A stretch of DNA of 49,528 nt, from NCBI GenBank assembly GCA_016928995.1, contig JAFGJS010000084.1, forward strand, positions 1 through 49,528, read 5' to 3'. Shown piece by piece: positions 937 to 39,247 of this stretch. Numbering within the stretch: position 1 is the stretch's first letter; each line of letters opens with the position of its first letter. Position numbers and translations under genes: made by a program. The DNA comes from Candidatus Sumerlaeota bacterium (GTDB taxonomy: Bacteria > Sumerlaeota > Sumerlaeia > JAFGJS01). The notes under the pieces were generated by a model that saw nothing but the letters and a program-made list of their open reading frames with translations, ran no database searches and had not been told where the DNA came from.

Positions 937-1659
937 TCATCTGACGCCGGGCTTGAATAAATTCCGCAGCAATTCATTCAGGGATTCTTGCGCCTGTGGC
1001 ACGTATTGTTCCGCTTCTTCCAGTTGCTGCTCCAGCCGCATCATGCCGCCGGTGGCGGCGATGTCCGGCGCGCTGAAGGGCAGTTCGATCCATTTGCGGA
1101 TCAATTCCGCCGTGACCTCGATGTGAAATTGCAGTCCGACGATGCGCGGACCGTAAGCGAAAGCCTGGTTGCGGTAGATCGCGTTGCCTGCCAGCCGGAT
1201 GGCGCCTTGCGGCAAGTGAAACGTGTCGCCGTGCCAGTGGAAGACTGTCTGCTTTTCCGGAAAGTGCTTGAAATACGGGTGCCGTTGCGCCTCGGATGTC
1301 CATTCCACCTCGCCCCAGCCCAGTTCCTTTTGCGGTCCGGGATAAACCTCGGAGTCGTCCAGGGCGTTCGCCAGGAGCTGCGCGCCGAGGCACACGCCGA
1401 GGATCGGCCGCCGGTGCGTGGCGGTGTTGACGAAGTCGCGGATGAAGGTTTTCTCCTGAAGCAGCCAGGGGTGTTTATGCTCTTCATACACCCCCATTGG
1501 TCCGCCCATGATCACCAGCCCGTTCCAACGATTCGTGTCCTGGGGTTTTTCATCGCCGGCGTAAAAGCGCATGATCTCCCATGGGATTCCTTCGCGGTCG
1601 AAGAAATCGCCGATCAAGGCAGCAGGTTCGTCGTCGATATGTTGCAATACCAAAATCAT
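937..1659 (-). CDS. Class I glutamine amidotransferase (GMP synthase-like GATase domain protein)
   Basis: A stand-alone 240-residue triad glutamine amidotransferase. The nucleophile elbow GVCLGAQLLANAL places the catalytic Cys at residue 90. LQFHIEVT supplies His179 and Glu181 of the triad. VIMGGPMGVYEE near residue 50 is the typical oxyanion-loop region. Such proteins hydrolyse glutamine, or gamma-glutamyl compounds, and either pass ammonia to a partner or act alone as glutamyl hydrolases. No synthetase partner is visible here. The start codon overlaps the stop of the CARF-HEPN gene by four bases (ATGA), which indicates translational coupling and a common transcript. The native substrate cannot be read from the sequence. 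Confidence 0.9.
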   Translation of the reverse strand: MILVLQHIDDEPAALIGDFFDREGIPWEIMRFYAGDEKPQDTNRWNGLVIMGGPMGVYEEHKHPWLLQEKTFIRDFVNTATHRRPILGVCLGAQLLANALDDSEVYPGPQKELGWGEVEWTSEAQRHPYFKHFPEKQTVFHWHGDTFHLPQGAIRLAGNAIYRNQAFAYGPRIVGLQFHIEVTAELIRKWIELPFSAPDIAATGGMMRLEQQLEEAEQYVPQAQESLNELLRNLFKPGVR

Positions 1660-2972
1660 GCGCCGTTCTTCGTAACCTCATCTTTCCTTGGGATGTTCCA
1701 TACGTCATTTTCGCGTTCGAGCCAGGTGAATTGCAGTTCGGCGCAAAGTTCTTCGAATCGCGGGATCATGGCGCGGCAGACATCGCCAGTGAAGCGGATG
1801 AAATCGAGCGCCTGCTCGCGCGACATCGGCTGGACTCCATGCGAGAGGAACGACCGCCCGCGCGTTTCCATCATCTCCTTCAGTCCTGGATGGGCGCAAA
1901 AGGTCTGGCCCAGCGGATGCTCCAGCAGGCGCAGCAATTCATACGATTTGCGCAGGCCGATGCGCACAAGGCCGTCGTCCATGCTGCGCAACGCATCAAA
2001 ATCAGGGCGGTATTTCGGCGGAACCTTGCGTGTGTCAACCCGATCGGTGTCAATACCGAATTGGTCGTGAAGGATGAATTGCGCCTGCATTTCCAGCGCC
2101 CGGTAGGCGCGGATGATTGCGTCGTCATACCGTGCGCTGTGGTAACGGCGCAGGGCGTTGTTAAAGACATCGGCGAAGAGCATCTCATTATAACGGCGCT
2201 CGCCGACCGAATCTGCCATCGCATTCAGGCTCTCCAGTTGGCTGGTTTTGGGGAAAAATCGCGCGGTCAGATACCCCTGCCCCTCGATCCCTTTGAGCTG
2301 TTCCAGCGCCTCGGTAAAGCGGAAATTATCCCAATCCGCGAAGGCGGAGGTCAGGATGCGCAGTTCATCCAGCACGATGATGTCCGCATCATCCAGCAAA
2401 TCCTGTTCAATCCGGTCGATGCTGTCCTTTGTGCTTTGGAAACGGAGTTGCTCGAAGAAATGCAGCGCTTCGAGCAGATGGTGATAGGCGAATACGACAC
2501 GGGGCGAGGTGTAAGATGATTTGCGCTCAACGGTGTTTTCACTGTGTTTATTGTAACGCAGCATCTCGCAGCGCTGGGTGAGCGCGGCGAGCACCAAACC
2601 AGTTGACATGACCTTGGTGCCGCTGGAGTAATTGATTGAAATGCGACGCGGTTCGAAACCGCGCTTAATCAAATGCCGGATACCGTCTTTCGCGGTCTGG
2701 AAGATTCCCCTCAGGTCATGAGCGTTATGCAGCGTCACGATCTGGTAATTTTCAGGGCTAAACTCCAGCATATCAATCATCCGGCGCGCTGTTGGCTCGC
2801 TCTGGCTCGTGGCGAGCAGCATGATAAACACTGGCCGGAACAGGCGGATATCAGCAACCAGCGATTCTACAATCATCTTATCTTGTGGAGAATCAATGCC
2901 AACGGTTAAAACCAGCGCTCTCCCCCGTCCGTTGCCGTTATTAGGGGCAGAAGTCCTCATCTCGTGTGTCAT
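1656..2972 (-). CDS. CARF-HEPN protein, TIGR02710/Csm6-like (putative cyclic-oligonucleotide-activated RNase)
   Basis: This 438-residue protein has the layout of CRISPR-associated CARF proteins of the Cas02710 type. Residues ~18-150 form a Rossmann-like domain beginning ALVLTVGIDSPQ. The conserved loop NYSSGTKVMSTGLVLAA (Ser-Ser-Gly-Thr-Lys at 116-120) corresponds to the ligand-binding motif of CARF domains. The middle is helical (RRYHSARYDDAIIRAYRALE). The C-terminal part contains RSFLSHG, an R-x4-H motif at residues 373-378 that fits the catalytic motif of HEPN RNases. ATG at 2972 is preferred over TTG at 3038 because AAGGA lies 7 bases upstream. In the known family, CARF binding of cyclic oligoadenylate activates RNA cleavage. 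No cas gene or CRISPR array lies within the window, so its signal source is unknown. It overlaps the next gene by ATGA. Confidence 0.82.
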   Translation of the reverse strand: MTHEMRTSAPNNGNGRGRALVLTVGIDSPQDKMIVESLVADIRLFRPVFIMLLATSQSEPTARRMIDMLEFSPENYQIVTLHNAHDLRGIFQTAKDGIRHLIKRGFEPRRISINYSSGTKVMSTGLVLAALTQRCEMLRYNKHSENTVERKSSYTSPRVVFAYHHLLEALHFFEQLRFQSTKDSIDRIEQDLLDDADIIVLDELRILTSAFADWDNFRFTEALEQLKGIEGQGYLTARFFPKTSQLESLNAMADSVGERRYNEMLFADVFNNALRRYHSARYDDAIIRAYRALEMQAQFILHDQFGIDTDRVDTRKVPPKYRPDFDALRSMDDGLVRIGLRKSYELLRLLEHPLGQTFCAHPGLKEMMETRGRSFLSHGVQPMSREQALDFIRFTGDVCRAMIPRFEELCAELQFTWLERENDVWNIPRKDEVTKNGA

Positions 2973-3166
2973 ACCGCCATCCTTGGGATCAAACGAATCT
3001 TGGTCAGAATGAAGATCTTTTTGCGTGAATTCAACCAAAATCAGTTGACAATGCCGGTTCAGCTCTTTTCTGTAACCTATTTCCGCGTATTTCCGCGGTA
3101 ATCTTCAAAAATCGGCTAAAAAATAAATGCGCAGTTTGCGCGTTTCTATTTCGTGGAGGTATCTCA

Positions 3167-4411
3167 ATGAGTGAATTTGAAAAGCTGTCTCCGCCCAGCG
3201 GCGGGGAGCTGATCCAGATCAAACGCAAGCGCATCTCCGTCCCCGACAAGCCCATAATTCCGGTAATCCCAGGCGATGGAATTGGCCCGGAAATCACTGC
3301 CGTCATGCGCGCCGTGGTGGATGCCGCGGTGGCCAAGGCTTTTGACGGCCGTCGTCAAATCCAATGGATGGAATGCTTGGCAGGCGAGGCGGCGATGGCT
3401 TCCTATGGCACGCCGATGCCCGATGATACGGTCAAGGCGATCCAGAAATACGTCGTCGCGATCAAGGGGCCATTGACCACGCCCGTCGGCGGCGGCATCC
3501 GCAGCCTGAACGTCGCGTTCCGCCAGATCCTGGATTTATATGCCTGCGTGCGGCCCGTGCGCTACTATCGCGGGGTGCCCAGTCCGCATCGCCGGCCGCA
3601 GAAGGTCAATGTGGTGATCTTTCGTGAGAACACCGAGGATGTCTACGCCGGGATCGAATACAAAGCCGGCACGGACGAGGCCAATCGTGTGCGCGACTTC
3701 CTGGTCAATGAACTTGGCGCCAACATCCGCGAGTTCAGCGGCATCGGGATCAAGCCGATCAGCGAGTTTGGCAGCAAGCGCATCGTGCGCAAGGCGATCC
3801 AGTACGCGATCGACAACAAACGCAGTTCCGTGACGATGATGCATAAAGGCAACATCATGAAGTTCACGGAAGGCGCCTTCCGCGATTGGGGCTATGAACT
3901 GGCCAAGGAGGAATTCGCCAAGGACGTGATCAGCGAAGACGAATTATGGGAGAAATACAACGGCCAGGCGCCCAGGGGCATGATCGTCCTGAAGGACCGC
4001 ATCGCCGATTCGATGTTCCAGCAGATCCAGACCCGTCCCGATGAGTATGATGTGATCGCCACGCCCAACCTGAACGGCGACTTCCTCTCCGACGCCGCCG
4101 CGGCGCTGGTCGGCGGTCTCGGTCTTGCGCCGGGCGCGAACATCGGCGATTTCGTCGGGCTGTTTGAGGCGACTCATGGCACGGCGCCGAAATATGCCGG
4201 CAAAAACATGGTCAATCCCGGCTCGCTGATCCTTTCGAGCGTGATGATGCTGGAATACATGCGCTGGAACCGCGCGGCGCGGCTGATCACCAAGGCGCTG
4301 CAGGCCACGATCCGGCAGAAAAAGGTGACCTACGACCTTGAGCGGCAGATGAAGGGCGCAACCAAGCTCGGCTCGAAGGAATTCGGCGAGGCCATCATCA
4401 GCAACATGTAA
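3167..4411 (+). CDS. icd: Isocitrate dehydrogenase [NADP+]
   Basis: A 414-residue protein that aligns throughout with the homodimeric bacterial NADP-dependent enzyme. It oxidatively decarboxylates isocitrate to 2-oxoglutarate in the TCA cycle. Visible landmarks are [12 protein letters not shown] near the N-terminus, [19 protein letters not shown] (containing the active-site serine that is phosphorylated in E. coli), and [31 protein letters not shown] has the Lys-Tyr pair typical of NADP rather than NAD specificity. The ATG follows GGAGG with suitable spacing. It is divergent from the CARF gene, with about 195 bp between the chosen starts. A perfect TTGACA lies at 3045, but no convincing -10 box follows. 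The terminator-like hairpin at 4456 lies downstream. Confidence 0.97.
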
Positions 4412-4510: not shown

Positions 4511-7500
4511 TTACTCAAACAAGTTCCACCGGTCTGCCTGGGTGTTTTCTTCTTCAGCAGCGGTAATCTGTCCTGTCACTGTAAAGTTGAACAAATAGGG
4601 AACTGCTTCGCCTTCCCGGGTCATGAAACTTACCATGCCGCTGAAATCGCCGGCGGTTGTCGTGGGCAATTCGACGGTGAATGTCTCCGTCGCCCCTGGC
4701 GGCATCAGGTATCCGTAGTATGACATGCTCTCCGGAAATCCTTCCGTGATGACGAAAGGCGTATCGGCAGCCAAATCAGCGAGATGAAGAAAGGTGTATA
4801 GTTGTCCGCTGCCTGAGACTGCCAGATTCTCGACAGTGACAACGAGCGACAGGCTGGTGGCGCCTTGTTCGGCGCTGCCCATGTCGATCACAGTCGCGCT
4901 GCTGATTACATCCTGCGACTGCGCAGTGACCCGTATTTCCGACCAGTCATCGATTTCTCCGGTCACGCTGAACGTGGTGGGATTTTCATCCGCGTCGTTC
5001 GTGGCGATGCTGACCACTCCGTCGTAATCGCCCACGGGATAATCGCCGCTTAAGGTCAAGGCAAAGGTGTCCGAATTGCCCGGAGCCAGCACCGAGGCGA
5101 GCGGATTCGTCAATACGTAACCCGCCGGGATAACCGGCGTTCCCAACGTCAGATTTACATTGCCTGTGTTCGTCACCCGAAAGGTCCGGGTGCCGCTCGA
5201 AACCTCGGTCGTTGCGAAAAGGCTCACCGGCCCACCGCCGTTCGGGATTTCCGTCCACGGCGCCGGGAAATAAGTCTCCAGTTCCAGCAGTATCTCCGGA
5301 TTGTCGATTTCGAAAATGGCTGTGAAGGTCGAGGCTTCCGTCACATTCGTCACGGTCAGCGGATTGTCTGTGGAAAAATCAAGGCCGTCATCGGTCCACT
5401 TGATGAAATGCCAGCCGAGGGGCGCATTCGCGGAAACCGAGGTGCAGTCGTCGCTATAATTGACTGTTTGCGAAGTTGCGCCAGTCAGCGACGCTCCAGG
5501 CGCGCCGTCGGTCACGAAGGTCAGTGTATATTGATAGATGGCAAAAACGGCGGTGAACGAAGTATCCTCCGTGACGTTCGTCACTGTCAGGGGATTTGAT
5601 GTTGAGTAATCGAAACCGTTGCTTGCCCACTTGACGAAATGGTATCCTGTGGGATTTTGGGCGATGACTGGTGTGCAATCAGCGCCGATGACAACCTCCT
5701 GAAAAACATCGCCGTCAATCCATGATCCTAACGTGCCATCCGTATGGAATGACACCATGTATTGACTGATAAAAACACCTGTGGAAAATAAAATGTCATT
5801 ATCTGTCCCAATCGTCAATCCGAGCGAGTTGGACGATGACCATATCGCGCCCCAAAGCCCAGCGCCATCAGTCGTAATTTGCGGTGAGATGTCTGCGAAT
5901 GGATCTGTCGCGGCGCCGGTGTTAATCACAGAAGGCGCAGTCCAGTCCACGCCATTATTGATCGAATGAGCAATGAGCAAGTCAGAATCTGTTCCAATCG
6001 TTCCATCGAGCGAATCATTTGATTCCCACACCACAACCCAGTGATTTGATGTGTCAAAGATGACGCTTGGATAATGATCATCGCCCGAATCGTATAGAGC
6101 GTTCGTATTGAGCGCTATGGGTGAACTCCAGTTCAAGCCATTATCAGACGATCTGGATACTAGAATATCATCATCCGTCCCGATTGTATTGCTGAGCGAA
6201 TCATCCGATCGCCATGCTACAATCCAGTTGCCGGCATCATCCGTCGCTATTTGCGGCTCGCAATCATCGCCTGCATCGACAGATGAATTCGTATTTAGCG
6301 CAGTTGGAGTGGTCCAGGACATGCCATCGTCGGTTGAAATCGCAATTAAAACATCGTAGTCAGCGCCAATCGAACCGCTTAATGAATCATTGGAACTCCA
6401 TACTGCTATCCAGTTCCCAAAAGTATCGACCGTAATCTGCGGCGATAAATCATCTCCTGTATCGGTCGCCGCATTCGTGTTAAGAGCAGTGGGAGTGGTC
6501 CAGCTTACGCCATCATCTGCTGAGCATGAGAATAAGATATCCCAATCTGTTCCGATCACGCCTTCGAGAGATTCACATGATTGCCAGACTGCTATCCACT
6601 GGCCTGCATTGGTCCAAGTGACATTCGCCTTTGTATCGTCCTCTGAATCTGTTTCGGCATTGGAATTAAGCGCGGTTGGCGTTGTCCAGTTGCTCCCATT
6701 GTCTGTTGATCGCGAAATGAATATATCATCATCAGATTGGTATGCATTCCACACTGCCAACCAATTGCCAAGTCCGTCGGTGGAAATCTGCGAATAATAG
6801 CTCTCGCTGCTTGGTAAACCAGCAAAGGTGAGTAGCGTTATAGGTTCTGACCAATTTGCTCCATCATCATTCGAGTGCGAAACACAGATGGAATGTTCCC
6901 AAATAGGAAGATTGAAATTGTATGTCGAATCCCATATTGCAACCCAATGCCCTGAGCCGTCCGTTGCGATTGAGGGCAAATAATCGTCATCATTGTATGC
7001 ATCGGACGCCGCAGTGCTATCGGGTGTTTGGGGAGGATCGAACACCAATCGTTCAACTTGATTTATTTCAAAAAGAGCGGTATACACCATATCCTCGTAA
7101 ACATCAGTCACGATCAAGGGATTATCCGTCGAAAAACTTGCGCCGTTGTGTGTCCATTTGTGGAAATGCCAGCCATCTGACGCTTGAGCGAACACTGGAG
7201 TGCAGTCCTCGCCAGGATTGATTGTCTGAGACGTTGCTCCGGAGAGCGACGCTCCCGATGGGCCATATATGTCGAAGGTCACTGTATAATCATTTCTAGC
7301 AAAGATGGCAGTGAAACTCATATCATCAGTCACGTTCGTCACAGTCAAGGGATTGCTCGTCGAGAAATCCAATCCATCTCTTTGCCATTTAACAAAGTGA
7401 TAACGTGGAGGAGCTTGTGCCGAAACTGACGTGCCGTCGTCTCCGAGTTTAACCTGTTGAGCGGCGTTGCCTGACAGCGTAGCGCTTGATGTGCCGTCTG

Positions 7501-8980
7501 TTTGGAATATCAACTCGTAATGAATCGCTCCATTCGAGAACAAGATATCCCGGTCATTGCCGATTGTTCCGCCAAGCGGATCGTAGGCGTACCAGACGAC
7601 GACACAATTTCCAGCAGCGTCGACAGCGAAATGTGGATTGCCATCCCACACTTCGCCATCTGACGCAGCATCGGAAGTTAGAGGAGCCGGTGATGTCCAT
7701 GTCACTCCGTCATTTTTTGAAAGTGCGTATTGAATATCCCAGTCCGATCCTATTGTTCCATCAAGAGTATTGGAGGAGGCCCATATCATAATCCAATTAT
7801 CTGAGTTAAAGAGGGCAAGATGCGAACTTCCATCGCTTCCCGAATCAGTCGCGGCATTAGTATTAAGCGGGGCAGGAGCAGTCCAGCTTGCACCATTGTC
7901 TGTTGAACGTGCGATAAGAATATCTGAATCCGTCCCAATCGTCCCCTCAAGTGAATCCGTACTGCTCCATTCCGCTAACCATTGACCTGCACCGCAAGCT
8001 GTCACTTGCGCACCACTATCGCCGCCCGAATCAATTCCAGCATTGCTGTTAAGCGCAACAGGAGCGGTCCAGGTCAATCCATTGTCGGTCGAACGAGATA
8101 TGAGAATATCCGAATCCGTGCCGATTGTTCCACCAAGTGAATCATGGGACATCCACACAGCAATCCAGTTGCCTGCGCCATCAGTTGAGACAGTTGGGAT
8201 ATAATCAGATCCGGAATCACTCGCTGCATTGGAATTAAGAGCGTCAGGAACGCTCCAGGTTATGCCGTTGTCTGATGAAGTCGCGTAAAATATATCCGAA
8301 TCTGTCCCAATGGTTCCACCGAGCGTTTCATCTCCAGACCATACTGCAATCCAGTTGCCAGCGCCATCTGTCGCGAGTTGAGGTTTTTGATCAGTGCCAA
8401 CATCCGTGGCAGCGTTGGCGTTTAGCGCCTCGGGATCACTCCAGCTCATTCCATTATCTGTCGAACGGGATATTAGAATGTCTCCTTCTGTGCCGATTGT
8501 CCCACCGAGAGAATCGCCAGAATTCCATACTACAATCCAGGTGCCGGAACCATCAAACGCGATACATGGAGCGCCATCATTTCCTGAATCGGTAGCTGCA
8601 TTGGTGTTCAGCGGCGCCGACACGGTCCAACTATCCCCATTATCGGAGGAGCGCGCGAAAAAGATATCGGATTCCCCTTCATCCATTCTACTAAGTTCCC
8701 ACACCGCAATCCAGTTGCCGGCACCATCAGTCGCAACTTTTGCGGCATCGTCATAATTATCCTCATCCGTTGTAGCGTTGCTGTTAAGCGGAGCTGATAT
8801 TCCCATCACCAATTCCACGGCAGATGATCTGTCGGGCAAACCCAACACTACCGTCAGCATAAATAGCAATAGGAGCATCCTGCTTATACGTAGATGACCG
8901 CATTGCGATTGAATGTGCTGTTGCGCCATGCGAAAGATGTTTTTTCCTGCATGAGCTGTAATAAGATCAATCATAACCAT
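4511..8980 (-). CDS. Very large secreted Asp-box (BNR) beta-propeller protein with InlB B-repeats
   Basis: A 1,489-residue exported protein. A hydrophobic signal segment (MLLLLFMLTVVLGLPDRSSA) lies at about residues 35-54 after an unusually long n-region. AGGGAAGGG precedes the ATG at 8980, supporting that start. Six Asp-box units of ~58 residues follow, with motifs such as STDNGMSW (first at 111-118). Two InlB-type B-repeats come next (~490-640), then six more Asp-box units (~650-1080), two more B-repeats (~1095-1245), and two Ig-like choice-of-anchor/ASH-type domains to the C-terminus. Asp boxes normally mark turns of sialidase-like propellers. The catalytic Arg and the RIP motif of true sialidases were not seen, so a binding or structural role is more likely. 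No C-terminal sorting signal is recognised. Similarity between units suggests recent internal duplication. Confidence 0.85.
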   Translation of the reverse strand: MVMIDLITAHAGKNIFRMAQQHIQSQCGHLRISRMLLLLFMLTVVLGLPDRSSAVELVMGISAPLNSNATTDEDNYDDAAKVATDGAGNWIAVWELSRMDEGESDIFFARSSDNGDSWTVSAPLNTNAATDSGNDGAPCIAFDGSGTWIVVWNSGDSLGGTIGTEGDILISRSTDNGMSWSDPEALNANAATDVGTDQKPQLATDGAGNWIAVWSGDETLGGTIGTDSDIFYATSSDNGITWSVPDALNSNAASDSGSDYIPTVSTDGAGNWIAVWMSHDSLGGTIGTDSDILISRSTDNGLTWTAPVALNSNAGIDSGGDSGAQVTACGAGQWLAEWSSTDSLEGTIGTDSDILIARSTDNGASWTAPAPLNTNAATDSGSDGSSHLALFNSDNWIMIWASSNTLDGTIGSDWDIQYALSKNDGVTWTSPAPLTSDAASDGEVWDGNPHFAVDAAGNCVVVWYAYDPLGGTIGNDRDILFSNGAIHYELIFQTDGTSSATLSGNAAQQVKLGDDGTSVSAQAPPRYHFVKWQRDGLDFSTSNPLTVTNVTDDMSFTAIFARNDYTVTFDIYGPSGASLSGATSQTINPGEDCTPVFAQASDGWHFHKWTHNGASFSTDNPLIVTDVYEDMVYTALFEINQVERLVFDPPQTPDSTAASDAYNDDDYLPSIATDGSGHWVAIWDSTYNFNLPIWEHSICVSHSNDDGANWSEPITLLTFAGLPSSESYYSQISTDGLGNWLAVWNAYQSDDDIFISRSTDNGSNWTTPTALNSNAETDSEDDTKANVTWTNAGQWIAVWQSCESLEGVIGTDWDILFSCSADDGVSWTTPTALNTNAATDTGDDLSPQITVDTFGNWIAVWSSNDSLSGSIGADYDVLIAISTDDGMSWTTPTALNTNSSVDAGDDCEPQIATDDAGNWIVAWRSDDSLSNTIGTDDDILVSRSSDNGLNWSSPIALNTNALYDSGDDHYPSVIFDTSNHWVVVWESNDSLDGTIGTDSDLLIAHSINNGVDWTAPSVINTGAATDPFADISPQITTDGAGLWGAIWSSSNSLGLTIGTDNDILFSTGVFISQYMVSFHTDGTLGSWIDGDVFQEVVIGADCTPVIAQNPTGYHFVKWASNGFDYSTSNPLTVTNVTEDTSFTAVFAIYQYTLTFVTDGAPGASLTGATSQTVNYSDDCTSVSANAPLGWHFIKWTDDGLDFSTDNPLTVTNVTEASTFTAIFEIDNPEILLELETYFPAPWTEIPNGGGPVSLFATTEVSSGTRTFRVTNTGNVNLTLGTPVIPAGYVLTNPLASVLAPGNSDTFALTLSGDYPVGDYDGVVSIATNDADENPTTFSVTGEIDDWSEIRVTAQSQDVISSATVIDMGSAEQGATSLSLVVTVENLAVSGSGQLYTFLHLADLAADTPFVITEGFPESMSYYGYLMPPGATETFTVELPTTTAGDFSGMVSFMTREGEAVPYLFNFTVTGQITAAEEENTQADRWNLFE

Positions 8981-29537: not shown

Positions 29538-29542
29538 AAAAA
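29508..29542 (-). repeat. GACAGGAT-type repeat, right copy (inverted)
   Basis: On the minus strand the copy reads TTTTTTTAGACAGGATGAAC and continues AGGATGATCGGGAT. It encodes the C-terminus and stop of the GxxExxY gene, and its A tract runs into the first possible ATG of nuoD. It is inverted relative to the copy at 28698, so the whole island lies between oppositely oriented copies. Confidence 0.8.
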
Positions 29543-30789
29543 TGAGAAATCTAATGAGTATGACTTCAGACAATATTGGCGAAGAGGCACAGGGGCGGCG
29601 GACTGTCGATTATTCTTATGACGGGCCGGAGACCATGAAGCTGAACATGGGGCCGGTGCATCCGAGCACGCACGGCGTGCTGCGGCTCGTGCTGGAACTC
29701 GACGGCGAGACCGTGGCGGAGTGCAAACCGGTGATCGGCTATCTGCATAGCGGCAAGGAAAAACTCGCCGAGGCCAAGACCTATCATCAGTTCATCCCCT
29801 ACACCGACCGGCTGGATTACCTGGCGCCGATGTCGAACAACACGGCGTACGCGCTGACCGTTGAAAAAATCCTCGGCGTCGAGGTGACGGAGCGCTGCAA
29901 GTGGCTGCGCGTGATGCTTTGCGAACTGGCGCGCATCGCCTCGCATCTGCTGGGCATCGGGGCGATGGCGCTGGATCTGGGCGCGACGACTCCGTTCCTC
30001 TGGGCGTTTACCGAGCGCGAGAAGCTGTACGACCTTTTCGAGATCATCAGCGGCGCGCGGTTCACGGTGAGCTACATGCGCGTCGGCGGCGTGGCGCGGG
30101 ACGCGACGGACGAGTGGCTCGCCGGCGTGAAAAAATTCGTCGATGAGTTTCCCGCGCATCACAAGGACATCGACACGATCCTGACCAAGAACGAGATCTT
30201 CCTGCGCCGCACCAAGGACATCGGTTTTCTCAGCGTGGAAGACGGTCTGCAACTGGGCATCAGCGGTCCATCGCTGCGCGGCTCCGGCATCGATTGGGAC
30301 ATTCGCCGCTCGAATCCTTACCTGGTTTACGATCAGATCGACTTCAACGTCGTTACGCGCAAGGCCGGCGATGTTTACGCTCGCTACCTGTGCCGCATGG
30401 ATGAGATGCTGGAGAGCCTGAAGATCGTTCAGCAATGCCTGGATAAACTGCCGAACGGCCCGGTGAACATCGACAATTACAAGGTGATCTATCCTCCCCG
30501 CGACCGGGTGAAGGAGTCGATGGAGGCGCTGATCCACCACTTCCTGCTGGCGCAGGAGGGGATCACGGTTCCCGAGGGCGAGGCGTATGTGCCGATTGAA
30601 GGCCCCAAGGGCGAGATGGGCTTCTACGTGGTCAGCGACGGGACGACCAAGCCGCTGCGCAATCGCATCCGCACGCCTAGCTTCTACAACTTATGGGCCA
30701 TCCCGCACGTCAGCAAGGGCGCCTTGCTGGCGGACCTGGTGGCGATTATTGGCAGTTTCGACATCGTATTGGGAGAAATCGACCGCTGA
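29542..30789 (+). CDS. nuoD: NADH-quinone oxidoreductase subunit D
   Basis: A 415-residue peripheral-arm subunit (49-kDa family), homologous to the large subunit of NiFe hydrogenases but without the metal-binding Cys. It forms much of the quinone pocket with NuoB. Landmarks are LNMGPVHPSTHGVLRLVLEL, YLHSGKEKLAE with the quinone-pocket His, and RAPSF-like RIRTPSFYNLWA near the end. The first ATG (29542) abuts the inserted repeat. ATG codons at 29554 or 29560 may be the original start, and none has a strong ribosome site. The insertion has therefore probably changed the translation start region. The stop overlaps nuoE by one base (TGATG). Confidence 0.97.
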   Translation: MRNLMSMTSDNIGEEAQGRRTVDYSYDGPETMKLNMGPVHPSTHGVLRLVLELDGETVAECKPVIGYLHSGKEKLAEAKTYHQFIPYTDRLDYLAPMSNNTAYALTVEKILGVEVTERCKWLRVMLCELARIASHLLGIGAMALDLGATTPFLWAFTEREKLYDLFEIISGARFTVSYMRVGGVARDATDEWLAGVKKFVDEFPAHHKDIDTILTKNEIFLRRTKDIGFLSVEDGLQLGISGPSLRGSGIDWDIRRSNPYLVYDQIDFNVVTRKAGDVYARYLCRMDEMLESLKIVQQCLDKLPNGPVNIDNYKVIYPPRDRVKESMEALIHHFLLAQEGITVPEGEAYVPIEGPKGEMGFYVVSDGTTKPLRNRIRTPSFYNLWAIPHVSKGALLADLVAIIGSFDIVLGEIDR

Positions 30790-31304
30790 TGGAACAGACA
30801 GCCGTTTCACAAATTCAGGATATTAAACCGGATGACTTGATGGTTCTCGGCGATCGGATGAGCGAGATTCGCGAGCTCGCCGGGAAGTATCCCGAGCGCG
30901 GGTCGCTGACGCTGCCGTTGCTGTGGATGGTGCAGCGGCAGGAGGGGTATGTCACCGAGGACGGCAAGCGCGACATCGCGCTGCTCACGGGCAAGCGGCT
31001 GGCCGAGGTGCAGGAAGTCGTGACGTTCTACACGCAGTACTTCCAGCAGCCGGTGGGCAAGTACTGCCTGGGCGTGTGCCGCACGCTCCCCTGCGCGCTG
31101 AATGGCGCGGGCGGCATGTTCGATTACCTGAGCGAGAAACTCGGCGTCAAGAACGGCGAGACGACGGAAGACGGCAAGTTCACGTTGCTGGCGTACGAAT
31201 GCCTCGGCGCGTGCAGTGAAGCGCCGGTGCTGCTGGTGAATGAAAAGACGTACACGCGCATGACCAAAGCGAAACTGGATGCTCTGCTGGAGAGCATGGA
31301 ATGA
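30789..31304 (+). CDS. nuoE: NADH-quinone oxidoreductase subunit E
   Basis: A 171-residue thioredoxin-fold subunit (24-kDa family) carrying the [2Fe-2S] cluster N1a of the NADH module. The four ligands are Cys97 and Cys102 in GVCRTLPC, and Cys138 and Cys142 in YECLGACSEAP. The N-terminal helical region includes LLWMVQRQEGYVTED. ATG at 30789 shares a base with the nuoD stop; a longer frame from 30693 overlaps nuoD and is not supported. The stop overlaps the start of an inserted PIN-domain gene by ATGA, which is unusual because nuoF would be expected next. Confidence 0.97.
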   Translation: MEQTAVSQIQDIKPDDLMVLGDRMSEIRELAGKYPERGSLTLPLLWMVQRQEGYVTEDGKRDIALLTGKRLAEVQEVVTFYTQYFQQPVGKYCLGVCRTLPCALNGAGGMFDYLSEKLGVKNGETTEDGKFTLLAYECLGACSEAPVLLVNEKTYTRMTKAKLDALLESME

Positions 31305-31783
31305 AAGAAAAGGTTTACATCGACTCCACAATACCCAGTTATTATTTCGATGAGCGGGAGTCTTTGCGCTTATTTACAGAAATTACCCGGCGATGGTGGA
31401 AGGAAGAATCGGGGAATTATGAGATTTGGATTTCAGGCGCCGTCTTTCAGGAGCTAGGATTGGGGAATTATCCCAATAAAGAAAAGGTGCTCGAATTGAT
31501 CCAGAACATTCCATTCCTGGACCGACTCAATGAAGTGGAGGAGATTGCACAATTCTATATGACGCATTTTGTGATGCCGCAGTCCCTGGCGGGTGACGCA
31601 GTGCATCTGGCATATGCATCGTTTTACAAGTTCGATTATCTCCTGACTTGGAATTGTAACCATCTGGCCAATGCCAACAAACAGCGGCACATCAAGATTA
31701 TCAATGGACAATTGGGATTGAGCACGCCACAGATTATTACGCCCATGGAATTGTTTCAGGAGCAGAGCAATGATAACGAATGA
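31301..31783 (+). CDS. PIN-domain protein, VapC-like toxin
   Basis: A 160-residue PIN-fold ribonuclease of the toxin type. Acidic metal-binding residues are visible as Asp8 in VYIDSTIPSYY, Glu51 in VFQELGLGN, and Asp99 in LAGDAVHLAYAS. The segment YLLTWNCNHLANA is characteristic of one VapC subfamily. PIN toxins cleave tRNA, rRNA or mRNA when the antitoxin is lost. The start overlaps nuoE by ATGA, and a 59-aa gene overlaps its end by 14 bp. The pair looks like a toxin-antitoxin module captured inside the nuo operon. The toxin comes first, the reverse of the usual order. Confidence 0.88.
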   Translation: MKEKVYIDSTIPSYYFDERESLRLFTEITRRWWKEESGNYEIWISGAVFQELGLGNYPNKEKVLELIQNIPFLDRLNEVEEIAQFYMTHFVMPQSLAGDAVHLAYASFYKFDYLLTWNCNHLANANKQRHIKIINGQLGLSTPQIITPMELFQEQSNDNE

Positions 31784-31949
31784 GATTTTACAAGAAAAAT
31801 ACCGGGTACAGAAGTGCTTGTCTGAACAGGCAAAGGATATGCATGAATATTTCGTGCAAATCGACCGCGACGTTGAGGAACTGGCGAAAAAGTACGGCTT
31901 CAAAATCAAGACGGCAGCGTCCATAGCCGCATCCAAGAAAATGGGTTGA
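31770..31949 (+). CDS. Small partner of the PIN protein, putative antitoxin
   Basis: A 59-residue, highly charged, helical protein that begins MITNEILQEKYRVQKCLSEQ and contains a DRDVEELAKKYGFKI segment. Small proteins of this appearance commonly lie next to this PIN subfamily, so an antitoxin role is inferred from context and resemblance. The ATG overlaps the toxin stop region by 14 bp, and GGAGCAG lies about 7 bases upstream. It shows no recognisable DNA-binding fold. It may be shortened at the C-terminus, since relatives as I remember them are slightly longer. Confidence 0.65.
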   Translation: MITNEILQEKYRVQKCLSEQAKDMHEYFVQIDRDVEELAKKYGFKIKTAASIAASKKMG

Positions 31950-31966
31950 AGGCACGGAGCAGGACA

Positions 31967-32713
31967 ATGCAGGAATTGCGGAAAAATAATAAGTTCAGAA
32001 ATGGATTTATCGATGTGATCGAAAGCTGCGGATTAAAACCGTCGCTATTTGAGCCCAGTGATAAAGCTAACGTTGATGGCCATCCTGCATTCATATTAAC
32101 CTTAAAGGATTCTGGATTGTCGTTCCTAGCGCGCACATGTAGCAGTGATCAGAGACGCCATGATTATAAATTTATTATATATGGTGCTGATTATAATTGG
32201 TCAAATTATATGCCGCGCTCTCGAAGTGGAATGGAGTATATATATCCGCAAGATAGAATTGGAAGTCCCGAAGAATCGTGCTCTGCAACTGATGTTTATA
32301 CGGCATTTACCAGTTGGCTAGAAGATCATGTGAAACCTTATTTACGGGAATTGGAAACTCCCAATCTTTGGGAGCAAATTGCCAAGCAAGATATAGTGAA
32401 GTTTGATCCACGTATTCGAGATGAAAATGAATTCAACGAAGATGAAAAAAAGGAATATAGAGCATCAATCGCAAAATTTCATCAACTGATTTTGACAACA
32501 TATCATCCAAATGATGAATGCCAGAAGCAAATTCAGGATCAATTGGATTATCTTACCGAACGAGTGGATAAATTGAATAAGTTTGATTGGTGTGGTGTAG
32601 CGATACAGATACTCATCGGCATTTCAATTCAATTAGCTTTCAATGAGGAGAGCCGAAGGCAATTATTTGATTTGTTCAAGGAATGTTTTTCCGCTTTTCA
32701 TCTTCTGAACTGA
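31967..32713 (+). CDS. AT-rich ORF of unknown function, soluble domain plus C-terminal hydrophobic helix
   Basis: A 248-residue protein. The N-terminal ~120 residues are a globular domain with no recognised fold (FLARTCSSDQRRHDYKFI, ADYNWSNYMPRSRSG). After the linker YLRELETPNLWEQ comes a helical, charged region (NEFNEDEKKEYRASIAKFHQL; QIQDQLDYLTERVDKLNKFDW). A hydrophobic segment CGVAIQILIGISIQLAF follows near residues 207-225, with a short tail. This C-terminal coiled-coil-plus-helix module resembles one attached to varied N-terminal domains in bacterial accessory proteins (from memory, unverified). The DNA is AT-rich relative to nuo genes. ATG at 31967 has GGAGCAGG just upstream. A membrane-associated effector role would be speculation. 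Confidence 0.6.
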   Translation: MQELRKNNKFRNGFIDVIESCGLKPSLFEPSDKANVDGHPAFILTLKDSGLSFLARTCSSDQRRHDYKFIIYGADYNWSNYMPRSRSGMEYIYPQDRIGSPEESCSATDVYTAFTSWLEDHVKPYLRELETPNLWEQIAKQDIVKFDPRIRDENEFNEDEKKEYRASIAKFHQLILTTYHPNDECQKQIQDQLDYLTERVDKLNKFDWCGVAIQILIGISIQLAFNEESRRQLFDLFKECFSAFHLLN

Positions 32714-32742
32714 GGAAATATTCGTCAGCGTGAAATAAAAAA

Positions 32743-32769
32743 TCACGCAGAGGCGCGGGGGCGCAGAGG
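32743..32769 (+). repeat. CACGCAGAGGCGC-type inverted repeat, left arm
   Basis: The arm contains TCACGCAGAGGCGC followed by GGGGGCGCAGAGG. It is the inverted partner of the arm at 33165-33191, with only a few mismatches, and lies 9 bases before the second GxxExxY gene. The arm itself is built from repeated GCGCAGAGG units. Confidence 0.85.
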
Positions 32770-32778
32770 TTTTGAGTA

Positions 32779-33162
32779 ATGCATGAAAATGATATAGGAA
32801 CGATTGTCATTGAGGAATGCATCGATATTCATAGGGAGTTAGGGCCGGGACTGTGGGAAGTGGTTTATGAGGTGGTGTTGGTTGACGCCTTGTTAAGACG
32901 TGGACTGAAGGCTGTGCGGCAGGTTCCGATCCCCATTCAGTTCCGGGGCAGAAAGTTTGACGAAGGCTTTAAAGCGGACGTGATTGTGGATGACAAAGTC
33001 GTTTTAGAGTTGAAATCTGTGGAAAGAGTCGCGCCGGTGCATAAAAAGCAGGTGAATACTTATTTACGAATGACGGGATGTAAGTTGGGCTATTTGCTGA
33101 ATTTCGGTGAGGAACTCATGCGGGATGGCATCCATCGGGTTGTGAACGGCTTGGAGGAATAA
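32779..33162 (+). CDS. GxxExxY family protein (PDDEXK_3-like), second copy
   Basis: A 127-residue family member with the naming motif as GLWEVVY (residues 24-30). The nuclease-like residues are Asp67 in FKADVIV and Glu77/Lys79 in VLELKSV, followed by Gln91 in KKQVNTYLRMTG. Sequence identity to the copy at 29136 is low outside the motifs, so the two are separate acquisitions rather than a recent duplication. It is enclosed by a 27-bp inverted repeat of a family unrelated to that around the first copy. The gene is in the nuo direction, between the AT-rich ORF and nuoF. Composition is closer to the nuo genes than that of the ORF before it. Confidence 0.88.
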   Translation: MHENDIGTIVIEECIDIHRELGPGLWEVVYEVVLVDALLRRGLKAVRQVPIPIQFRGRKFDEGFKADVIVDDKVVLELKSVERVAPVHKKQVNTYLRMTGCKLGYLLNFGEELMRDGIHRVVNGLEE

Positions 33163-33164
33163 AT

Positions 33165-33191
33165 CCTCTGCGCCTCAGCGCCTCTGCGTGA
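33165..33191 (-). repeat. CACGCAGAGGCGC-type inverted repeat, right arm
   Basis: The minus strand reads TCACGCAGAGGCGC followed by TGAGGCGCAGAGG. It starts two bases after the GxxExxY stop codon and ends 30 bp before nuoF. With 32743-32769 it forms a nearly perfect inverted pair around a single gene. Confidence 0.85.
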
Positions 33192-33220
33192 GATTATAAA
33201 TCAAATTTGCAGGAATTGAA

Positions 33221-34540
33221 ATGCCAATAGCGGATTATACACCGAAAATGCTTGTGGGTTACGAGACGCTGGTGAGCGATTTCCGGGAGTCGCTGGATTC
33301 CTATCGCAATCGCGGCGGATATGAGGCGTTCGACAAGGTTTTGCGCAAGCTCAAGCCAGAGGACGTGCAGGCGGAGGTGAAGTCGGCGAATCTGCGCGGC
33401 CGCGGCGGCGCGGGCTTTCCGGCCGGCGTGAAGTGGGGCTTTCTGCCGAAAGAGCCGCAGCCGGGCGCGCCGCATTACTTGACCGTGAACGCCGACGAAT
33501 CGGAGCCAGGGACGTTCAATAACCGTCCGATCCTGGAACAGTATTGCCACACGCTGCTGGAGGGGATCGGCATCACGTGCTTCGCGATTCAGTCGCACCA
33601 TGCGTTCATCTTCGTGCGTGGGGAGTATTTCGACGCGCAGAAGAACCTGAACGCGGCGATCCGCGAGGCGGAAGAAGCGGGGATCCTCGGCGATAAGTGC
33701 ATGGGGCATGACTACAAGCTGAAGGTGACGGTGCACTCGGGCGCGGGAGCGTACATCTGCGGCGAGGAGACATCGCTGCTGGAGGCGCTGGAAGGGCGCC
33801 GGGGTTATCCGCGGCTGCGACCGCCGTTTCCGGCGATCAAGGGTCTGTACCAGTGCCCGACGCTGATCAACAACGTGGAGACGATCGCGTGGGTTCCGAT
33901 GATCTTTCGCGACGGCGTCGATGAATTCAAGAAATACGGTACGGAGAAGTCGGGCGGACCGACGATCTATTCGATCAGCGGGCACGTGAAGAAGCCGGGC
34001 AACTACGAAGCGCCGCAGACGGTGACGTTGCGCGACTTGATTTACCATTACGCCGGCGGCATCCGCAACGACAACAAGTTCAAGATGTGCTTTCCGGGCG
34101 GGACGAGTGTGCCGCTGTTCTTCGAGGACGCGCTGGACGTGATGATGGACTTCGATTCGCCGCCAAGCAAGGGGTCGTTCCTCGGCTCGAAGGCGATCCA
34201 GGTGATGGACGAGACGGTGTGCCCGGTGTGGGTGTGCCTGAATACGATGCATTTCTATCGTCATGAGTCGTGCGGGCAATGCACGCCGTGCCGCGAGGGT
34301 TCGTCGTGGATGTACAAAATCCTCACGCGGCTGGAGCGCGGCACGGGCACGATGGAAGACATCGACATGCTGGAGGAAATCTGCGACAAGATCAGCGGGC
34401 GGAGCATCTGTGCGCTGGGCGATTTCAGCACGGCGGCGCCGCGCAGCGCGATCAAGCGCCTGCGCCACGAGTTCGAAGAGCACGTAAAGCAAGGCTGCTG
34501 TCCGTTCAAGGACAAGATGGATTGGCATGAGTTTAAGTAG
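33221..34540 (+). CDS. nuoF: NADH-quinone oxidoreductase subunit F
   Basis: A 439-residue subunit (51-kDa family) that binds NADH, FMN and the [4Fe-4S] cluster N3, the electron entry point of complex I. LRGRGGAGFPAGVKWGF is the nucleotide-binding glycine-rich loop, and GAGAYICGEETSLLEALEG is the FMN-region signature. ESCGQCTPCREG plus the later Cys in ICALGDF are the cluster ligands. AGGA lies 7 bases before the ATG. It is separated from nuoE by a 1.9-kb accessory island, although NuoE and NuoF form one module. Confidence 0.98.
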   Translation: MPIADYTPKMLVGYETLVSDFRESLDSYRNRGGYEAFDKVLRKLKPEDVQAEVKSANLRGRGGAGFPAGVKWGFLPKEPQPGAPHYLTVNADESEPGTFNNRPILEQYCHTLLEGIGITCFAIQSHHAFIFVRGEYFDAQKNLNAAIREAEEAGILGDKCMGHDYKLKVTVHSGAGAYICGEETSLLEALEGRRGYPRLRPPFPAIKGLYQCPTLINNVETIAWVPMIFRDGVDEFKKYGTEKSGGPTIYSISGHVKKPGNYEAPQTVTLRDLIYHYAGGIRNDNKFKMCFPGGTSVPLFFEDALDVMMDFDSPPSKGSFLGSKAIQVMDETVCPVWVCLNTMHFYRHESCGQCTPCREGSSWMYKILTRLERGTGTMEDIDMLEEICDKISGRSICALGDFSTAAPRSAIKRLRHEFEEHVKQGCCPFKDKMDWHEFK

Positions 34541-34567
34541 GGGCTGGGATCTAGAGTCTGGGGGCTG
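34541..34567. repeat. Degenerate GGGTCTA-type repeat after nuoF
   Basis: Directly at the nuoF stop codon lies GGGCTGGGATCTAGAGTCTG followed by GGGGCTGG. It resembles the right arm of the nuoI-nuoJ element (39214-39247 on the minus strand). No inverted partner is seen before nuoG, so it may be a solo remnant. The remaining ~90 bp up to nuoG shows no gene. Confidence 0.5.
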
Positions 34568-34658
34568 GTGTTGGAGCGGCGGCGCCGCATTAAACGAAGC
34601 GCCAACATTGATTGAGACGCTGGAAAAGAATCTGGAATAAAGCTAAAGGCAAAACGCA

Positions 34659-37337
34659 ATGGCAGTGACGGATAAAAATGAAGTCAAGAAGGACACCGTG
34701 ACGCTGACGATCGATGGGATCGAGGTGACGGTTCCGAAAGGCACGAACTTGATTGAGGCGGCGAAGGCCGTGGGCAAGCACGTGCCGCATTATTGCTATC
34801 ATCCGTCGCTGTCCATCGACGGAAATTGCCGGTTGTGCCTCGTGGAAGTGAAGGGCATGCCGAAACTGACCATCGGTTGCAACACCATGGCGCAGGACAG
34901 CATGGAGGTTTTCACCGAGTCGGAGCAGGTGAAGGACGCGCAGAAGGGCATGATGGAATTCCTGCTGGTGAACCACCCGCTGGATTGCCCGGTGTGCGAC
35001 CGCGGCGGCGAATGCCAGTTGCAGCGTTTCAGCATGGAATACGGCTTGTCCGACGGGCGCGCGATTGACAGCCGCCGCAAGTTCCCCAAGGAAGATTTCG
35101 ATCCGCTGATCGACCTGGAGCGCAACCGCTGCATCGTGTGCCAGCGTTGCGTGCGCTTCATGGATCAGCTCGGCGGCGAGCGCTCGCTGGTGGTGGTGAA
35201 TCGCGGCAACCATGATTGCATCGCAACCTATGAAAACGAGATGATTTCCGGCAACCGGTTCAGCGGCAACGTGGTCGATCTTTGCCCCGTGGGCGCGCTG
35301 ACCAGCAAGCCGTACCGCTTCAAGGCGCGCAATTGGGAGTTGCAGCAGGTGCAGAGCACTTGCACGCTGTGCTCATCTGGCTGCCGCGTGACGCACTGGG
35401 TGCGCAACGGCGAAATCCTGCGCACCACGCCGCCGACGCGCCCGAAAAACAAGCGCTATCAGCTCGACGACGAAACGATGGAGTTCATCTGTAACGCCGG
35501 ACGCTTCGGGCATGACTTCGCCAATTCGGACAAGCGCTTAATGGCGCCGTTGGTCGATGGCGAAGCCGGCGAGTGGAACGCGGCGATTGATGAAACGGCG
35601 AAGCGGCTCAACAGTGTGAAAGAACAGCACGGCGCGGATGCCGTGGGCTTCCTGATCGGCGGACGATCGAGCTGCGAGGAAATGTATCAGATCAACCAGC
35701 TGGCGCGCGGCGTGGTTAAAACGAATAACATCGATTGGCGCGGCGGGCTGCTGAGCAAGGAAGCGGCGAAGGCCTGGAGCGTTGCGTTCGACGCGGCGAA
35801 TGGCCAGTTGGCAGATCCGACCGTTTATGACACGATTCTGCTCGTGAACGCGGATATCGGCGGGCAGTCGCCGGTGGATGCGCTGAAGATCAAGGAGTCG
35901 GCGCGCTTCGGCTATAGCACGGTGGTGAGCGTGGGCTACCGGCACGATCCGTGGTTCGCGAACCGGATCAACGCGACGGTGCAGGTCGCTCCGCATCAGA
36001 CCGCGGAGTTCATCGGCGCGATGGGCCGCATCCTGACCAGCAATGGCGAGATTCTTTCGACGGACGCGGCGAATCTGGCGGATACGATTCAGGCCGATCA
36101 TAAGTCAATGATGGGGTTTCTGTCGCAGTTGCAGAACACGGAGCGCGGGCTGCTGATTTTTGGTTTGAACGATCTGGGCGGTTTGAATGCGCCGGCGGTC
36201 ACGCAGGCGTGCCTGGAGTTCAGCAAGACCATGGGCGACCGTTTCAAACTGCTCCCCTTTGCGCCGGATCGCAATGCGCGTGGCGCGTTTGCGATGGGCG
36301 TGCAGCCGGACCGGCTGCCGGGCGGACCGCTCAACGACGATGAAACGAACTCGCGGATGACTGAAGCATGGCGGAAGTTGCCGAAGACCGCCGGGCTGAC
36401 GGCGCCGGAGATGCTGCAAGCCGCGGCGGACGGCAAACTGAAAGCGCTGTATGTGCTGGGCGCCGAGGCGCTGTGGAACTACAGCGACAGCGGCCTGCTG
36501 GAAAAGGCGCTGAGCAACCTGGAACTGCTCATTGTGCAAGACAACTTCCCTTCGCAATTGACGGACAAGGCGCATATCGTGCTGCCGGGCAACCTGACGA
36601 TTGAGGGCTTCGGCACATACGCCGATTTGAGCGGCTACGTGATTCGTTCCGGCCAGGGACGGCGTCCGCTGAGCCGCATCCCGGCGCAGCAACACTGCGC
36701 GACGCTGGGCGAAATCATGCTGGCCATGGGCAACAAGCATGCGCTGACCAATGCGCACGATGTTTTCGTCAAAGTCCTGGAACTGGTGAAGGTGTCCGAG
36801 GCTGTTGATCCGGATGCGCTGCTGCTGGGCGGGCCTGGCGAATCGGCGCCGATCTGGCCGCACAACACGCCTGAGCAAGCGCGCCCGGTCATCTCGTCCG
36901 CGCGGCCGTTCTCCTACTACTCGACCTATAAACCGGCCTATCGTCTGGACAATCAGGCGATCCGCCAAGACACGGAAGCGAAACTGGCGGGAAGCAAGCC
37001 CGTCGGCGCGGCTGAAGGCGATGCGCTGACGCTGACCTGGGCGCCGGTTTTGTTCGGCAAGGATCCGAAACTGGATCTTTCACCGTCGCTGGACGACGTG
37101 CGCGAGGGCGGCGAGATCGAAATCGCGCCGCATACCGGGCGTCATCACAATATCGCCGACGGCGACACGATCGTTGTGTCGGCGAAGCCGAACGGCGACG
37201 GAGTCAAGGGCGTGGTGAAATTCAACGAGCACATGGCGAAGGACACGGTGTTCTTCGCGCAAAACGGCATTGAGTTCGATGCGACGTCCGGCATGCAGAC
37301 GCTGCCGGCGGCCTATCTTCGCAAGGCGGGAAATTAA
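34659..37337 (+). CDS. nuoG: NADH-quinone oxidoreductase subunit G
   Basis: An 892-residue large peripheral subunit (75-kDa family) that carries the iron-sulfur wire. The N-terminal plant-type ferredoxin domain has HYCYHPSLSIDGNCRLCLVEV. The His-Cys and Cys sets for N5 and N4 follow (LDCPVCDRGGECQLQ, RCIVCQRCVRF). CTLCSSGC with a later Cys in FICNAGRFG corresponds to the extra off-path cluster N7 that some bacterial enzymes keep. The rest is a molybdopterin-oxidoreductase-like domain that has lost cofactor binding. The length is close to E. coli NuoG (about 908). AAAGG precedes the ATG by ~10 bases. nuoH starts 3 bp after the stop. Confidence 0.97.
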   Translation: MAVTDKNEVKKDTVTLTIDGIEVTVPKGTNLIEAAKAVGKHVPHYCYHPSLSIDGNCRLCLVEVKGMPKLTIGCNTMAQDSMEVFTESEQVKDAQKGMMEFLLVNHPLDCPVCDRGGECQLQRFSMEYGLSDGRAIDSRRKFPKEDFDPLIDLERNRCIVCQRCVRFMDQLGGERSLVVVNRGNHDCIATYENEMISGNRFSGNVVDLCPVGALTSKPYRFKARNWELQQVQSTCTLCSSGCRVTHWVRNGEILRTTPPTRPKNKRYQLDDETMEFICNAGRFGHDFANSDKRLMAPLVDGEAGEWNAAIDETAKRLNSVKEQHGADAVGFLIGGRSSCEEMYQINQLARGVVKTNNIDWRGGLLSKEAAKAWSVAFDAANGQLADPTVYDTILLVNADIGGQSPVDALKIKESARFGYSTVVSVGYRHDPWFANRINATVQVAPHQTAEFIGAMGRILTSNGEILSTDAANLADTIQADHKSMMGFLSQLQNTERGLLIFGLNDLGGLNAPAVTQACLEFSKTMGDRFKLLPFAPDRNARGAFAMGVQPDRLPGGPLNDDETNSRMTEAWRKLPKTAGLTAPEMLQAAADGKLKALYVLGAEALWNYSDSGLLEKALSNLELLIVQDNFPSQLTDKAHIVLPGNLTIEGFGTYADLSGYVIRSGQGRRPLSRIPAQQHCATLGEIMLAMGNKHALTNAHDVFVKVLELVKVSEAVDPDALLLGGPGESAPIWPHNTPEQARPVISSARPFSYYSTYKPAYRLDNQAIRQDTEAKLAGSKPVGAAEGDALTLTWAPVLFGKDPKLDLSPSLDDVREGGEIEIAPHTGRHHNIADGDTIVVSAKPNGDGVKGVVKFNEHMAKDTVFFAQNGIEFDATSGMQTLPAAYLRKAGN

Positions 37338-37340
37338 GTT

Positions 37341-38552
37341 ATGGATTTGTTCGACCTGATAACATCGATCATCAAAGGGCTGGCGTTTCCGCTGATCCCG
37401 TTGACGCTGGTGCCGGTCATCGTTCTGTTTGAACGCAAGATCATCGGCTGGGTCCAGGAGCGTCCGGGGCCGAATCGCGTGGGTCCGTGGGGCGTTGTTC
37501 AGGCCGTGGCGGACGCCGCGAAGTTGATCTTCAAGGAGGACCTTCGCCCCGCAGGCGCGATCGCGTTTCTGCATACGCTGGCGCCGGCGCTGACCATCGT
37601 TACGACATTTCTTACGCTATCCGTCGTGCCGTTCGGACCGAAACTGAGTTTCGAGTTCGACGGCGTGATGCGCACGGTGTCGATGTCCGTGCTCGATTTG
37701 AACCTCGGCCTGGTGTTTTTCCTCTCTATCACAAGCATTTCGATTTACGGCATCATCCTGGCCGGGTGGTCTTCGAACAACAAGTACTCGCTGCTGGGCG
37801 GGCTGCGCTCTTCGGCGCAGATGGTCAGTTATGAAATCAACCTGTCCTTCACGCTGGCCTGCGTGCTGATCCTGGCCGGCTCGTTCGATGTGTATGACAT
37901 CGTCGAGGCGCAGCAAGGCGGCTTCCTGAACTGGTTCATCTGGCGGCAGCCGCTGGCGTTCCTGCTGTTCTTCATCGCGCAGATCGCCGAGACGAACCGC
38001 CTGCCGTTCGATCTGCCGGAGGGCGAAAGCGAGCTGACCGGCGGCTTCCACACGGAATACTCGGGCATGAAATTCGCCATGTTCTTCATGGCGGAATACA
38101 TCTCGATGTTCGTGATGGCGGCGCTGGTGTCGGTGCTGTTCCTCGGCGGATTCCAGGGACCGGTCGCGCTGCCGGTGAGTGAATGGATCGGCGGCCCGGC
38201 GTGGCTGACGCAGGCGCTGAACGCGCTGATCGGCTTGTTCTGGCTAATCGCGAAAATCGCGGGGCAGATCTTCTTCATGATCTGGATGCGCGCCACGCTG
38301 CCGCGTTTGCGTTACGACCAACTGATGTCGCTGGGCTGGAAGGTGATGTTTGAACTGGCGACGATCAATTTGATTTACACGGCGGCGGTGCAGCTGATGT
38401 TTGGCTCCAATCCGATGCCGCTGTTTACAATCCCGTTTCTGGGGACGATTTCCGTGCAATGGATCGTGCTGTTCGCGCTGGGAGCGGGCGTGATCGCCGG
38501 TGTGGAACTGCTGACGCAGGCATACCGGAGGAGGACTTTGAATGCTTGTTGA
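37341..38552 (+). CDS. nuoH: NADH-quinone oxidoreductase subunit H
   Basis: A 403-residue membrane subunit with about eight or nine helices that connects the quinone site to the proton pathway. Landmarks are VLFERKIIGWVQERPGPNRV near the N-terminus, SMSVLDLNLG, and AETNRLPFDLPEGESELTGG, the acidic loop near the quinone entry. FFMIWMRATLPRLRYDQLM lies near the C-terminus. The length is somewhat above E. coli NuoH (325), partly from insertions between helices. The end overlaps nuoI by 11 bp. Confidence 0.97.
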   Translation: MDLFDLITSIIKGLAFPLIPLTLVPVIVLFERKIIGWVQERPGPNRVGPWGVVQAVADAAKLIFKEDLRPAGAIAFLHTLAPALTIVTTFLTLSVVPFGPKLSFEFDGVMRTVSMSVLDLNLGLVFFLSITSISIYGIILAGWSSNNKYSLLGGLRSSAQMVSYEINLSFTLACVLILAGSFDVYDIVEAQQGGFLNWFIWRQPLAFLLFFIAQIAETNRLPFDLPEGESELTGGFHTEYSGMKFAMFFMAEYISMFVMAALVSVLFLGGFQGPVALPVSEWIGGPAWLTQALNALIGLFWLIAKIAGQIFFMIWMRATLPRLRYDQLMSLGWKVMFELATINLIYTAAVQLMFGSNPMPLFTIPFLGTISVQWIVLFALGAGVIAGVELLTQAYRRRTLNAC

Positions 38553-39027: not shown

Positions 39028-39247
39028 GGGGTGGGGTTTAGGGTTTAGGGTTTAGGGTCTAGGGTCTAGGGCGCGAACGGTTAACGCCGAGAAGTATAAA
39101 ATTATTTGGGGCAAAGATTTAATTCTTGGAAATAGGGATGTCAGATTAAGAGTGTTTTCTAGGTTTAGCGACAGTGAAGTTTTTCATCTTTCTGCGGCGA
39201 AGCCGCTCCTTCACCAGCCCCTAGACCCCAGACCCTAGACCCGAGTA
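39028..39247. repeat. Inverted GGGTTTA/GGGTCTA heptamer element between nuoI and nuoJ
   Basis: The left arm has five tandem heptamers at 39034-39068 (three GGGTTTA, then two GGGTCTA). The right arm at 39214-39247 carries the complement (CCCCTAGACCCCAGACCCTA and further). The arms enclose about 145 bp with no convincing ORF, possibly the decayed remains of a cargo gene. The adjoining 39247-39271 stretch (AACAAGAGCACGAGTGAGAG) recalls the CAAGAG hexamers near position 900. The first bases after the nuoI stop belong to the element. Confidence 0.8.

Follow-up and report, generated by a model that had tools for sequence, protein, structure and literature searches.

A predicted Csm6-like CARF-HEPN ribonuclease gene is probably inherited stably in Candidatus Sumerlaeota, mostly without type III CRISPR systems

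The window analysed here, the whole stretch of 49,528 nucleotides from a Candidatus Sumerlaeota MAG (4.55 Mb in 161 contigs, 92.5% complete), carries a gene for a CARF-HEPN protein set between a glutamine amidotransferase gene and a divergent icd-like gene (Table 1). The initial annotation had deduced the two domains from motifs, and this deduction is now borne out by profile matches to CARF and HEPN models, by a match to TIGR02710 and by a Csm6-like predicted fold. The TIGR02710 model is matched at 148.3 bits against a curated cut-off of 83.9 (E 3e-43), the Csm6 HEPN family PF09670 at 89 bits against 27 (E 3e-25) and the PADLOC model CARF1--CARF_HEPN at E 3e-68; automatic annotation tags the protein as CRISPR-associated, and all 19 aligned members match TIGR02710 at E 1e-3 or better. 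Structure prediction, proposed earlier as a check, returned both folds: the AlphaFold2 model (input of 19 orthologues, pLDDT 85) matches Thermus thermophilus Csm6 in Foldseek with E 4e-12, and its structural alignment with the cA4-bound form of that protein (PDB 8jh1) reaches Z 19.1 over 372 residues and includes both domains.

Table 1. Features of the CARF-HEPN locus, in positions of the window
Feature	Position	Strand	Remarks
Glutamine amidotransferase class I gene	937..1659	-	PF00117, E 3e-15; ATGA overlap with the CARF-HEPN stop
CARF-HEPN protein gene (TIGR02710/Csm6-type)	1656..2972	-	438 aa; profile matches and predicted fold
HEPN RNase domain (PF09670)	1776..2183	-	residues 264-399; profile match
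Catalytic motif R371-x6-H378	1839..1862	-	invariant in orthologues; aligned with R415/H422 of Thermus Csm6
CARF domain	2502..2921	-	residues about 18-157; structural alignments with CARF proteins cover residues 15-158
Shortened lid	2508..2555	-	residues 140-155; anchor-to-anchor length 14, versus 21-26 in type III-linked relatives
Ligand loop SSGTKVMSTG	2598..2627	-	residues 116-125; K120 aligned with K137 of Thermus Csm6
Extended CARF loop	2832..2900	-	residues 25-47; anchor-to-anchor length 21, versus 14 in most type III-linked relatives
Shine-Dalgarno-like AAGGA	2980..2984	-	7 nt 5' of the CARF-HEPN ATG; read from sequence
icd-like gene	3167..4411	+	divergent neighbour; also near the G012 orthologue (counterpart there PF00180, E 2e-89)

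Elsewhere in the window, low-complexity CTCTTG-type repeats lie at 770-910 in the intergenic stretch next to the amidotransferase gene, a 1489-aa reading frame at 4511-8980 (minus strand) contains many tandem repeats (LNTNAATDSGDD...NWIAVW...DILIARSTDNG) and probably encodes a secreted repeat protein, and Complex I (nuo) genes, including those of the 49-kDa subunit, a NuoG-like and two antiporter-like subunits, occupy 29542-45464 (plus strand). Rfam and tRNA scans of the whole window gave no matches.

The SSGTKVMSTG loop recognized in the initial annotation holds, and its lysine K120 is invariant in the alignment of Sumerlaeota orthologues; mutation of the corresponding K137 in Thermus Csm6 abolishes binding of cA4 (PMC10897365). 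As for the catalytic pair proposed earlier, H378 stands while R373 has to be replaced: arginine occupies this position only in the window protein and in its orthologue from G012 (20 sequences aligned), and the invariant arginine is R371, so that the R-x4-6-H pattern of HEPN domains is present as R371-x6-H378. Its counterparts R415 and H422 are required for the RNase activity of Thermus Csm6 (PMC10897365). The residue following the catalytic arginine is N416 in Thermus Csm6, asparagine in most outside proteins and histidine in TTHB144 of the same species, and is never asparagine in Sumerlaeota. By homology, the window protein may be taken as a putative RNase gated by a cyclic nucleotide.

CARF-HEPN RNases are generally regarded as outputs of type III CRISPR systems. 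The orphan status of the gene, seen at first within the window only, extends to the assembly: profile searches of the host genome, 92.5% complete, gave neither RAMP nor Cas1 nor Cas10 palm domain, no type III system being found there, and no mCpol, and SMODS CD-NTases had no match in the host or in any of 40 Sumerlaeota genomes (E 0.01; SMODS model only). The term orphan refers here to RAMP, Cas1 and Cas10. No candidate messenger synthase was found among the Cas10, SMODS and mCpol families searched in the host. Assignment as a CBASS effector was dropped, the SMODS model having no match in the 40 genomes, and so was an mCpol synthase partner for the clade, as the only two mCpol matches in the phylum both overlap Cas10 hits.

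While a single-protein search for relatives returned none, its alignment-based repeat gave 27 loci, and the orthologue is present in 21 of the 40 Sumerlaeota genomes, one in each, with no second copy found by a HEPN-family search of these genomes. RAMPs occur in 10 of the 40, namely in 5/21 carriers and 5/19 non-carriers (Fisher p = 1), leaving 16 of the 21 carriers without RAMPs, or 10/12 among those at least 90% complete. G015, G023 and G027 gave weak matches to the Cas10 palm, which were set aside as probable GGDEF-type cross-hits because E. coli gives a signal too. Most Sumerlaeota genomes are incomplete MAGs, and one might suppose that the protein is an ordinary unlinked accessory of a host type III locus missing from the assembly, given its 161 contigs and completeness and the fact that rpoB itself, used as a sensitivity control, was recovered in 27/30 genomes and missed in 3/30. 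Single absences therefore mean little, but 16 jointly mean much: the product of the incompleteness values is about 2e-17 (genomes taken as independent), and G035, a single 3.29-Mb contig, carries the orthologue without RAMP or Cas10, which makes a merely unassembled locus very improbable. Since no RAMP, Cas10 or Cas1 was found in the host and there is no phylum-wide association, the protein was not classed as a type III accessory effector. Between the two readings offered in the initial annotation, a signal from a distant type III system is thus disfavoured and CRISPR-independent signalling is favoured. As most carriers have no CRISPR system able to make the alarm, another switch probably exists.

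In Sumerlaeota genomes that hold both the orthologue and type III genes, three type III loci are equipped with CARF proteins of their own: G033 has CARF-PDDEXK and CARF-TM, G029 has CARF-PDDEXK together with a CARF7 protein, and G009 has a CARF5 protein, so that the core CARF-HEPN protein is not their obvious missing effector. The locus of G021 matches III-A/III-F Cas10 and III-F Cas7 models, and on the type III contig of G026, a fragment, no other CARF effector was found. These data bear on the proposal that the RNase is a core component awaiting cA4/cA6 from type III loci that are gained and lost through horizontal transfer or brought in on mobile elements. Retention of the full Csm6 fold and of the GTK loop, which leaves room for cA4 or cA6 as ligand, would agree with it, as would the greater number of changes in type III presence than in orthologue presence on the RpoB tree (8 vs 5), and in-trans signalling between type III loci has been discussed (PMC11229360). 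Against it speak the lack of type III association, the resident CARF effectors of the three loci and a pocket altered across the whole clade, and we regard it as unlikely, yet deserving attention. With respect to the loci themselves, that of G017 has CRISPR arrays beside it, with 33 repeat copies split between two blocks (L165, 10-749 and 10258 onwards), and so has that of G009, with 8 copies (L163, 11-593). The 398-aa frame L160:296-1492 (minus strand) matches Cas2 in its C-terminal part, whereas its first 300 residues have no PADLOC match, implying a fusion or an overlong frame, and in the 520-aa frame L163:1135-2697 (minus strand) a match to Cas1 from residue 174 onwards is preceded by about 170 additional N-terminal residues.

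All 19 full-length Sumerlaeota proteins fall into a single clade (support 100/100), and their tree is congruent with that of RpoB in family f12 plus G018 and in G028/G029/G035, the deeper branches being poorly settled in both trees. Neighbourhoods are steady within families and housekeeping in content, exemplified by a histone-deacetylase-like gene and a Mur ligase in f13 or by PilM and PRA isomerase in f12, and no recurring defence partner was seen in them. The overlap with the amidotransferase gene was rejected as a conserved operon, this neighbour being absent from every other orthologue; in G021/G022, G027 and G009, where short overlaps also occur, the overlapping genes are different ones. 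A phage origin is likewise unsupported, relatives being absent from the phage records and viral contigs searched. If the gene were an inactive remnant left by a lost CRISPR system, the lack of cas genes of the searched families in the host genome would be expected; however, orthologues with 30-41% identity to the window protein all keep the ligand lysine and the catalytic residues, frames are full-length in the great majority of carriers, and dN/dS is about 0.11 in two within-genus pairs (NG86; a rough value, with dS above 1 and near saturation), so that decay hardly comes into consideration. The gene for this predicted Csm6-like RNase is probably stable and inherited in Candidatus Sumerlaeota, mostly without type III CRISPR.

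Conservation of the catalytic residues is combined with a remodelled CARF pocket, in which one loop is about 7 residues longer and the lid about 10 residues shorter than in relatives. Counted from one fixed anchor to the next, the first CARF loop has 20-23 residues in 19/19 Sumerlaeota proteins, as compared with 14 in 10/11 distinct outside proteins and 20 in that of Thermomicrobium; the lid has 12-15 residues in 18/19 Sumerlaeota proteins (20 in G009) and 21-26 in the outside ones, a small set of 11 gathered via motif patterns or plasmid search. In Thermus Csm6 a mobile loop closes over cA4 and reads one adenine (PMC10897365). Of the features that go with self-limiting (ring nuclease) behaviour in that protein, a mobile lid and residues of the Y161/N164 type, the lid is short in the Sumerlaeota clade and the residues are not conserved there, though they are likewise absent from TTHB144. 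Judging from the alignments, the shortness of the lid suggests that the ligand differs from that of TTHB144 and Thermus Csm6 or that the intrinsic shut-off is weaker than theirs.

Taken together, these findings make it probable that the gene encodes a standalone ligand-gated HEPN ribonuclease derived from TIGR02710/Csm6, a family of type III CRISPR effectors, and that it is passed on vertically in Candidatus Sumerlaeota as a chromosomal gene no longer coupled to type III CRISPR. The observed basis of this explanation consists in the family, the predicted fold, conserved residues, single copy, one clade, housekeeping neighbours, no type III association and altered loops. According to the mechanism envisaged, the protein would act as a dimer whose paired CARF domains take up, at the GTK loop, an oligonucleotide-like ligand from a source other than Cas10; its binding would place R371 and H378 of both HEPN domains so that they can cut, and the activated protein would cleave RNA, slowing or halting growth under infection or stress. 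More tentatively, it is possible to think of a core CRISPR-independent nucleotide signalling in Sumerlaeota, where an unrecognised synthase would supply an oligonucleotide messenger to the remodelled CARF-HEPN RNase as an inherited response to infection or stress.

Participation of the protein in a response to RNA damage is a version of the standalone-ribonuclease explanation, not fully exclusive of it, and follows the precedent of RtcR, whose CARF domain detects broken tRNA outside CRISPR (PMC7790460). The lack of cyclic oligonucleotide synthases of the searched families in the host genome and the shortened lid are in line with this version. Both proteins have CARF outside CRISPR; RtcR, however, is a transcription activator with a divergent CARF and no HEPN RNase domain, the parallel is one of analogy, and we consider such a role doubtful, with rather low probability.

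A clade whose sensor and RNase residues stay intact across a phylum in the absence of the established signal source implies another activator. If the standalone-ribonuclease explanation is true, a defence effector has been turned into core machinery, and a new messenger or synthase might come to light through its study. The kind itself is known, since standalone CARF nucleases (PMC3710099) and RtcR have already been described; what appears to be new is phylum-wide maintenance, the tested lack of type III association and the clade-specific loops. A literature search conducted mostly outside subscription journals yielded no paper on the Sumerlaeota clade.

Proteins most similar to the Sumerlaeota clade display a different genomic setting. 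Most of the nearest outside relatives found come from Syntrophaceae and other Deltaproteobacteria, besides a single genome each of Armatimonadetes and Bryobacteraceae. RAMPs are present in 10/10 of these genomes, and in 7 a RAMP gene and the relative are 2.5-6.3 kb apart, in a sample that is non-random, being gathered by motif patterns or plasmid search. Among plasmid homologues, that of Synechocystis lies downstream of Cmr genes, and that of Rhodothermus has just a cas1 about 9 kb away within the stretch read. The TIGR02710 protein of Thermomicrobium roseum, the best plasmid match (28% identity), shares the long first loop with the window protein and differs in that its gene ends a cmr (type III-B) operon and its lid has 21 residues. 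TTHB144, a cA4-activated RNase (PMC11229360), resembles the window protein in TIGR02710 membership, domain order, GTK loop and R-x6-H at 23% identity, but its gene adjoins cas1 and the csm operon, and its first CARF loop and lid count 14 and 23 residues against 21 and 14. Thermus Csm6 (TTHB152; PDB 8jh1, 5fsh) corresponds to the predicted fold in both domains and in its three key residues, though it belongs to a type III-A operon and possesses a long mobile loop. Finally, standalone CARF-nuclease genes outside CRISPR loci were noted as early as 2013 (PMC3710099); they share the CARF-nuclease fusion with the Sumerlaeota clade, for which phylum-wide inheritance, an association test and a pocket comparison, none of them contained in that text, are added here.
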